Below are positions 7,034-8,173 of a stretch of DNA of 45,820 nucleotides, one piece after another; position 1 is the first letter of the stretch; each line of letters begins with the position of its first letter. The translations under genes were made by a program, and so were the position numbers. Source of the DNA: an uncultured Acidimicrobiales bacterium. Its GTDB lineage: Bacteria; Actinomycetota; Acidimicrobiia; Acidimicrobiales; SZUA-35. The notes beneath the pieces are model-generated. The model did no database searches. It worked only from the letters and a program-made list of their open reading frames with translations, and had not been told where the DNA came from. The stretch is taken from assembly GCA_937922045.1 (NCBI GenBank), contig CAKZXA010000082.1, forward strand, positions 1 to 45,820. Direction: 5' to 3'.

Positions 7034-7102
7034 GCCAAGTCCATCGGCACCTCCCGCTCGGTATCAAGAACAGAATCTAGACCAAATGGACTAGTGGCAG
7101 GG

Positions 7103-7645
7103 TCAGTGGTCTGGCCCCGTCGAGGCGCCTTCGATTGCGCTGACCAGTTCCTCGATCGAGGGGCGGTCGTCGGGGTTCGCGGGGCGGAAGACCGCGGCTA
7201 GGCGTCCCTCCCTGTCGAAGACGAAATCACCGCCGAGTTGGCGCACATCGGCTTCGGTTGGACGGTGTGGGCGACGACCACGCACAAGCAACCGGGCGTA
7301 GGCAGCGACATTGGCCGGCCCCCAAACCGACCACCAGGATCCTCGGGCCAGCCCAAGATCCTGATACCACCTACGGCCACTGTCGATCAGAATGGGGAAC
7401 GGCACCGCCATATGTCGCCGATAATTCTGTACCGCTGCAGGTTCGCCGAAGGTCACGACAACAACATCGACGTCACCCAATCGATCGAGATGCTGGCGCA
7501 CGGCCAGCACATGTTCTTGGCACGGCAGTCACATCAGGTGTCGATGAAAGATCATCAACACGCTCCGGCCCCGATGATCGGACAACGACCATTGACTACC
7601 GTCGGCGTCGGACAGGGTGATGTCTGGTTGGTCGTTGATTCGCAT
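7103..7645 (-). CDS. SelL-like thioredoxin-fold redox protein, probable selenoprotein (in-frame TGA = Sec39)
   Basis: Reading leftwards from ATG at 7645, the frame encodes a thioredoxin-fold protein of 180 residues interrupted only by TGA at 7531-7529. Around it the protein reads VLMIFHRHLM-TGA-LPCQEHVL. The TGA falls exactly on the first position of the CxxC-type redox motif, giving Sec39-Leu-Pro-Cys42. Downstream, VVVVTFGEPAA, the FPILIDSG turn and the GGDFVFDREGRLA strand match the AhpC/TSA-like family that includes SelL-related redox proteins, in which UxxC and UxxU are known. A conventional caller would start at the GTG codon 46 (7510) and lose the active site. Short complementary arms follow the TGA (CTG 7528-7526 with CAG 7495-7493; GCCA 7521-7518 with TGGC 7506-7503), but I cannot confirm a SECIS. 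No sel genes are in the window. A pseudogene is the alternative. Confidence 0.75.
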
Positions 7646-7650
7646 AGCCT
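7645..7650 (+). promoter_or_regulatory. -10 element for the ybaK-like gene
   Basis: TAGCCT at 7645-7650 lies seven bases before the ATG at 7658. It overlaps the first base of the divergent SelL-like gene, so the two genes have only 12 bp between start codons. Confidence 0.4.
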
Positions 7651-7657
7651 GCTGAGC

Positions 7658-8173
7658 ATGATAGACCGGAGCAGCTCAGGTTCGAAGACACCGGCGACCC
7701 AATCGAGCACTGAGCGGGTGGTCGCAGCCGCCGCCGAGCACGGCCTCGAACTCCACCTGCACGAATACCCCGACGGCACCAAGACCGCTAACGACGCGGC
7801 CGCCGCCGTTGGCTGCAAGGTCGATCAGATCGTAAAGTCGATGATCTTCGCCGCTGGCGAGGATCGACAACTCGTGCTCGCTCTGACCAGCGGGGCCCAC
7901 ACCGTTGACGGGGCTGCATTAGCCGAGCTGGCGGGGGTCGACGCCTGCCATCGAGCAACCGCCGACGAAGTGCGGGCCGAAACCGGCTTCGCCATCGGCG
8001 GCGTGGCTCCTTTCGGCCACCTGACCACGGTGGCGACGTGGATCGATCCTCACCTTCTCACCTTCGATGAGGTTTGGGCCGCGGCCGGAACACCCCGTCA
8101 TGTCTTTCCCATCTCACCTGCCGACCTCATCCGTCTCACCGGAGCGGTCGAGGCCGACTTCACGAACGCGTGA
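7658..8173 (+). CDS. YbaK/EbsC-type aminoacyl-tRNA deacylase
   Basis: A 171-residue single-domain protein of the YbaK/ProX editing family, which hydrolyses mischarged aminoacyl-tRNAs such as Cys- or Ala-tRNA(Pro). Visible family hallmarks are the TANDAAAAVGCKVDQIVKS block with its conserved Lys, LVLALTSGAHTVD, the ATADEVRAETGFAIGGVAPFG loop, and the C-terminal VFPISPADLIRLTG strand. The frame stays open upstream to 7238, but that part runs antisense to the SelL-like gene. I therefore chose ATG 7658, which gives the usual length and has a -10 hexamer seven bases before it. Its stop overlaps the GTG of the methyltransferase at 8170, so the two are co-transcribed as a small tRNA/rRNA-quality unit. 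Confidence 0.9.
   Translation: MIDRSSSGSKTPATQSSTERVVAAAAEHGLELHLHEYPDGTKTANDAAAAVGCKVDQIVKSMIFAAGEDRQLVLALTSGAHTVDGAALAELAGVDACHRATADEVRAETGFAIGGVAPFGHLTTVATWIDPHLLTFDEVWAAAGTPRHVFPISPADLIRLTGAVEADFTNA

Follow-up and report, generated by a model that had tools for sequence, protein, structure and literature searches.

A SelL-related redox protein gene with a probable in-frame selenocysteine codon in an uncultured Acidimicrobiales bacterium

Is the TGA that interrupts a long frame on the minus strand of this contig an ordinary stop, or is it read as selenocysteine (Sec) in the active site of a redox protein? In the window (the whole stretch of DNA that was analysed, 45,820 nucleotides), translation bears out the frame that had been proposed: 180 codons, from ATG 7645 to a terminal TGA at 7105-7103, are open except for a single internal TGA at codon 39 (7531-7529), which does fall on the first residue of the redox motif in the peptide FHRHLM-U-LPC-QEH. 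An in-frame stop 5' of the ATG lies at 7678, and a scan of the in-frame codons between this stop and ATG 7645 revealed no ATG, GTG, TTG or CTG. The frame by itself is no evidence for Sec, because a crude scan that demands more than 35 codons ahead of the TGA and more than 100 behind it finds 60 frames in the window that are open across one TGA, 29 on the plus and 31 on the minus strand. What lifts this frame above chance is that homology flanks the TGA on both sides and that the TGA is kept in other genomes. The family match, the Sec machinery, the conservation of the TGA, a Cys form of the protein, covariation in a downstream hairpin and a codon bias at position +10 together suggest, at the level of sequence, that the TGA very probably encodes Sec in a peroxiredoxin-like (Prx-like) redox protein. 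The gene has the following features:

7103..7645, minus strand: SelL-related Prx-like gene, in all likelihood for a selenoprotein of 180 residues with Sec at residue 39 (frame, Pfam, NF040769, alignment A1)
7529..7531, minus strand: in-frame TGA, very probably read as Sec; residue 39, first of UxxC (TGA in all 40 sequences of A1, Cys in L095)
7520..7522, minus strand: TGC for Cys42, the probable resolving residue of UxxC (invariant in A1)

Gene callers that make no provision for selenoproteins would be expected to report either a fragment of 38 residues or a piece of 135 codons that lacks the active site. The NCBI pipeline may well annotate the gene, because a curated NCBI model of the family exists. 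Around the gene lie two ABC transporter genes, an ORF of 249 residues with no Pfam match, and genes for a protein with an aminoacyl-tRNA editing domain and for a SpoU methylase; they offer no functional clue.

To which family does the product belong? When it was searched with Cys substituted for Sec at residue 39, three Pfam profiles matched over their cut-offs: AhpC-TSA (54.4 bits, residues 7-103), AhpC-TSA_2 (54.7 bits, residues 52-154) and Redoxin (43.1 bits). Jointly, these matches extend over the TGA in both directions. Among curated models, NCBIfam NF040769 (SelL-related redox protein) fits best, with 142.4 bits for the whole protein against a curated cut-off of 120 and with residues 6-170 aligned to positions 3-172 of the 173 in the profile; the family pattern thus continues past the TGA, as had been claimed. 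Searched against the source genome, the NF040769 profile scores the gene at 133.6 bits. The match is near full-length, and sequence divergence is the only difference seen in this comparison, which was made with the profile rather than with the model's published description.

Within the wider superfamily, classic peroxiredoxins carry their peroxidatic residue in the motif PxxxTxxC/U. The window protein falls outside this class: its motif reads RHLMULPC and places U first, in the thioredoxin-type position. The closest solved structures are ResA proteins, with 1st9 as the best PDB sequence match (E = 7.1e-08); the shared sequence covers residues 4-92, i.e., the redox-motif half of the window protein. 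ResA is a thiol-disulfide oxidoreductase with a role in cytochrome c maturation, and it carries Cys where the window protein would have Sec. Single-sequence structure prediction of the product was poor (mean pLDDT 44.9). In SelL, the motif is UxxU. Residue 42 of the window protein is encoded by TGC and is Cys (UxxC), so that the protein is SelL-related rather than SelL, and no diselenide would be expected in its motif. The original description of the product as SelL-like therefore stands with respect to the SelL-related family, but not with respect to SelL proper with its two Sec residues. SelL is likewise a Prx-like redox protein with Sec in its redox motif: it is called Prx-like in a passage of PMC2398784, and is stated to hold a diselenide bond in a passage of PMC2397514 (citing Shchedrina et al. 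2007).

More broadly, passages of several papers show that Prx-like UxxC selenoproteins have long been described (PMC2398784, PMC9312934, PMC13188914), and Prx-like thiol:disulfide oxidoreductase selenoproteins of PF00578, with UxxC or UxxU, are tabulated in two of them (PMC9312934, PMC13188914). The window protein has both the AhpC-TSA match and the UxxC motif in common with these proteins. The main text of PMC13188914 makes no mention of NF040769. Literature searches found no paper that uses the names “SelL-related” or NF040769, nothing on this subject among the ten titles listed for combinations of selenoprotein, NCBIfam and PGAP, and no paper that combines selenoprotein and selenocysteine with an Acidimicrobi- lineage name. 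That the gene is an addition to an already known enzyme family, and no new kind of system, is well supported.

The search for Sec machinery in the source genome had been set beforehand as a point on which the Sec reading could fail. The 4.88-Mb source assembly, which is 96.9% complete, contains the full bacterial set: selA (400.3 bits), selB (253.5 bits, adjoining selA on contig C103) and selD (359.9 bits) are over their cut-offs, one tRNA-Sec (67.1 bits) is over its gathering score, and ARAGORN also calls a tRNA-SeC with anticodon tca. The tests for tRNA-Sec and selB are not fully specific, since they are passed by 5 and 2 of 14 control genomes, respectively, with a weak selB signal in all 14; selA passes in 1 of 14 and selD in 2 of 14, which leaves tRNA-Sec as the least specific of the four.

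Two further in-frame TGAs were observed in the source genome. The selD gene itself (L019, G000:C14:83625-87542, minus strand) has one at HGAGUAAK, so that SelD is probably a selenoprotein as well, and a separate peroxiredoxin of ~150 residues (L023, G000:C14:111593-114883) has one at its peroxidatic position (TPGU). Together with the SelL-related gene, these make at least three probable selenoproteins.

If the TGA is functional, how widely is it shared? A search with NF040769 of 298 genomes sampled from the order gives matches at E up to 0.001 in at least 149 of them. Matches over the cut-off occur in 13 of the 298, and all 13 contain exactly one in-frame TGA; among the weaker matches listed, some are Cys peroxiredoxins without TGA. 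Of 66 loci searched with phmmer, 58 matched, 54 of them with an in-frame TGA within the matched stretch, and the 40 loci above 75 bits make up alignment A1. The codon of residue 39 is TGA in all 40 rows, which come from many genera. The remaining 39 rows are 35-53% identical to the window protein, and R35, H36, residue 39, P41, C42, H45, F66 and Y94 are invariant. A1 was also searched against genomes sampled from the class (395) and from the phylum (396). Among the matches listed, 13 in the class exceed 200 bits, 12 of them with a single TGA. The thirteenth (L095, genome G322, 229 bits) lacks TGA and has Cys at the Sec codon (FHRHLACLPCQDH), i.e., a homologue has Cys where the window gene has its in-frame TGA. 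The comparison with homologues that had been called for thus returned both TGA and Cys at this codon, and the proposal that the TGA is read as Sec gains support on sequence grounds from the machinery, from A1 and from L095. On contig C61 of G322, this relative is covered by L095 and L170. The close TGA forms amount to 37 distinct sequences (set A2). Scans of the genome contigs with Cys-based active-site patterns returned no named relatives, which says little because such patterns cannot match TGA-bearing genes.

Of 46 genomes in which the machinery was also searched, 44 have the TGA form, one (G322) has the Cys form and one (G071) lacks a close copy. In the TGA-form genomes, selA is present in 42 (missing in G018 and G063), selB is over the cut-off in 39 (all but G018, G063, G092, G178 and G231, with G092 just below at 239.3 against 242.25), and tRNA-Sec is over the cut-off under stricter filters in 42 (all but G136 and G178). 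Most of these misses fall in fragmented or less complete assemblies, yet G018 is listed as 96% complete and is still without selA. G018 and G063 combine the TGA form and a tRNA-Sec with the lack of selA and of a selB over the cut-off; assembly gaps, or another route, are possible. G322 has kept selA and selB, and its best tRNA-Sec match (41.4 bits) lies below the cut-off. G071 has selA and selB, with no tRNA-Sec over the cut-off.

The original prediction had further noted weak complementary arms after the TGA, which raises the question of a bacterial SECIS element. The candidate is as follows:

7490..7510, minus strand: candidate bacterial SECIS hairpin, 8-bp stem of 7510-7503 with 7497-7490, loop CGUGC at 7502-7498 (covariation and published constraints)

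The hairpin starts 18 nt after the TGA, spans nucleotides 19-39 past it, has its loop 26 nt from the TGA and an energy of -13.2 kcal/mol. The bacterial model, as set out in a part of PMC13188914, has a loop of 3-9 nt on a stem of 4-16 bp, the loop 16-37 nt after the UGA, and further a G in the first two loop positions and an energy of -7.5 kcal/mol or lower; when this model was applied by hand, without bSECISearch, the hairpin agreed with all four constraints. As a single sequence, the window hairpin is no stronger than dinucleotide shuffles (z = 0.01), and an Rfam search over 7100-7700 gave two weak matches only, both to unrelated families and below gathering scores (E 0.16 and 0.26). The mean folding energy of 40 sequences, equalled by 20 of 200 synonymous sets, is weakly informative.

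The support for these arms, which form an 8-bp stem, is comparative. Among 32 close sequences, the scanned stretch offers its best 8-bp stem at the window hairpin, with 74.6% of positions paired, a value reached by none of 300 synonymous-codon shuffles, whose best sites are at most 69.1% paired. In A2, 75.3% of hairpin cells are paired. Both-side changes occur in 27 cells, where 10.9 would be expected, and covariation scores 0.271, with 0.147 as the mean of the shuffles. None of 500 shuffles reaches A2 in paired cells, both-side cells, covariation score or further pair types; for a fifth measure, pairs with both-side change, 73 of the 500 do so. When the partner is shifted by 1 to 3 columns, pairing falls to 19-50%. 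The five A2 sequences that had not been used in finding the stem pair at 7, 5, 8, 8 and 4 of 8 positions, two of the five poorly, and four others (L029, L035, L042, L054) also pair poorly, at 2 or 3 of 8. In the Cys form L095, the loop has changed from CGTGC to ACTGC, with 5 of 8 pairs remaining. Eight relatives with the motif IRHRxULPC have their best hairpin elsewhere, with the loop 20 nt after the TGA: as a 6-bp stem it is 100% paired and matched by none of 300 shuffles, and counted as 8 bp it is reached by 33 of 300.

Codon +10 from Sec belongs to the loop in the window hairpin, and to the 3' arm in that of the IRHRxULPC relatives. Codon usage at this position was compared in 136 distinct rows with U or C (101 Sec, 35 Cys), after the removal of rows with gaps, with other residues (e.g., T in L022 and L023) or with duplicate stretches; the ratio of 101 to 35 is no measure of prevalence, because many of the Cys rows were fetched deliberately as controls and most are remoter than the Sec rows. 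For Leu at codon +10, 38 of 40 Sec forms use TTG, compared with 5 of 25 Cys forms; the Leu cases are nearly all from remoter xQLR clades, and the hairpin statistics above from other clades. Of the 928 Leu codons that lie more than 20 codons downstream in Sec genes, 91 are TTG. For Val at codon +10, GTG is used by 54 of 57 Sec forms, compared with 418 of 951 Val codons further downstream. A Fisher test of Sec against Cys forms gives 3e-10, which is indicative only: kinship among the sequences makes such values overstate independence, and most Cys forms are more distant.

From these observations, a reasonably likely picture of the order's close SelL-related clade emerges: it would be almost wholly Sec-containing (37 distinct TGA forms and one Cys form seen), the SECIS would have shifted along the message around a fixed Sec site (loop 26 nt after the TGA in HRHxxULPC, 20 nt in IRHRxULPC), and codons in the hairpin region would be locked in Sec forms (TTG or GTG at +10) and released in Cys forms. 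If so, codon choice could provide a simple, sequence-only test for real selenoproteins. The family is well conserved and offers a clear case for comparing Sec with Cys forms and the two registers of the hairpin with each other.

Could the TGA nevertheless have another meaning? If it were a plain stop codon, with the gene decayed, or came from a sequencing error, just the 38-residue fragment would remain, and TGA does end five of the nine ORFs checked in the window, where frames open across one TGA are also common (60 by the crude rule). Against this, the TGA at this codon in every row of A1, across many genera, the conservation of the protein past it and the Sec machinery of the genome led to rejection of this explanation, which is very unlikely. 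The same five TGA-terminated ORFs speak against a general change of the code, with TGA read as another amino acid (e.g., Trp), for which no supporting point was found. The Cys of L095, a close homologue without the TGA, and the SECIS-like pairing and locked codons behind the TGA likewise contradict such a change; it was rejected as well, and is the least credible of the alternatives.

Slightly less remote, if still improbable, is the idea that Sec is inserted and that the gene serves in addition as a selenium sensor, low selenium leading to the 38-residue product or to an internal start at GTG 7510 (135 codons). An ORF from this GTG does exist; however, the codon sits inside the hairpin stem, the preceding AAGAACAT is not clearly a ribosome site, and the resulting protein would be devoid of the active site. 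Insertion of Sec at residue 39 of a full-length redox protein is the preferred reading.

The product would then be a thioredoxin-fold, Prx-like selenoenzyme. SelB with Sec-tRNA(Sec) would decode UGA 39, directed by the hairpin that follows it, and Sec39 would act as the nucleophile that attacks the substrate, which may be a peroxide or a disulfide. Cys42 could subsequently resolve Sec39 via a selenenylsulfide, which a cellular thiol system would reduce. This split of catalytic roles between Sec39 and Cys42 appears fairly probable. Since U occupies the thioredoxin-type first position and not the TxxC position, the assignment leans towards a thiol-disulfide oxidoreductase, with peroxidase activity also possible.

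Some relatives depart from this motif. Three loci (L052, L062, L070) have the TGA at the Sec codon and close the motif with a residue other than Cys (ULFY, ULFR and ULFP, respectively), so that their resolving residue may be located elsewhere or absent. Distant relatives in the class and phylum (L107-L149) have TGA at the same codon within the motifs LRHAGULIC, RHFGULHC and RYYGUIPC, and the LRHAGULIC group has the downstream stretch CACCTCGTGAAGGTG in common.
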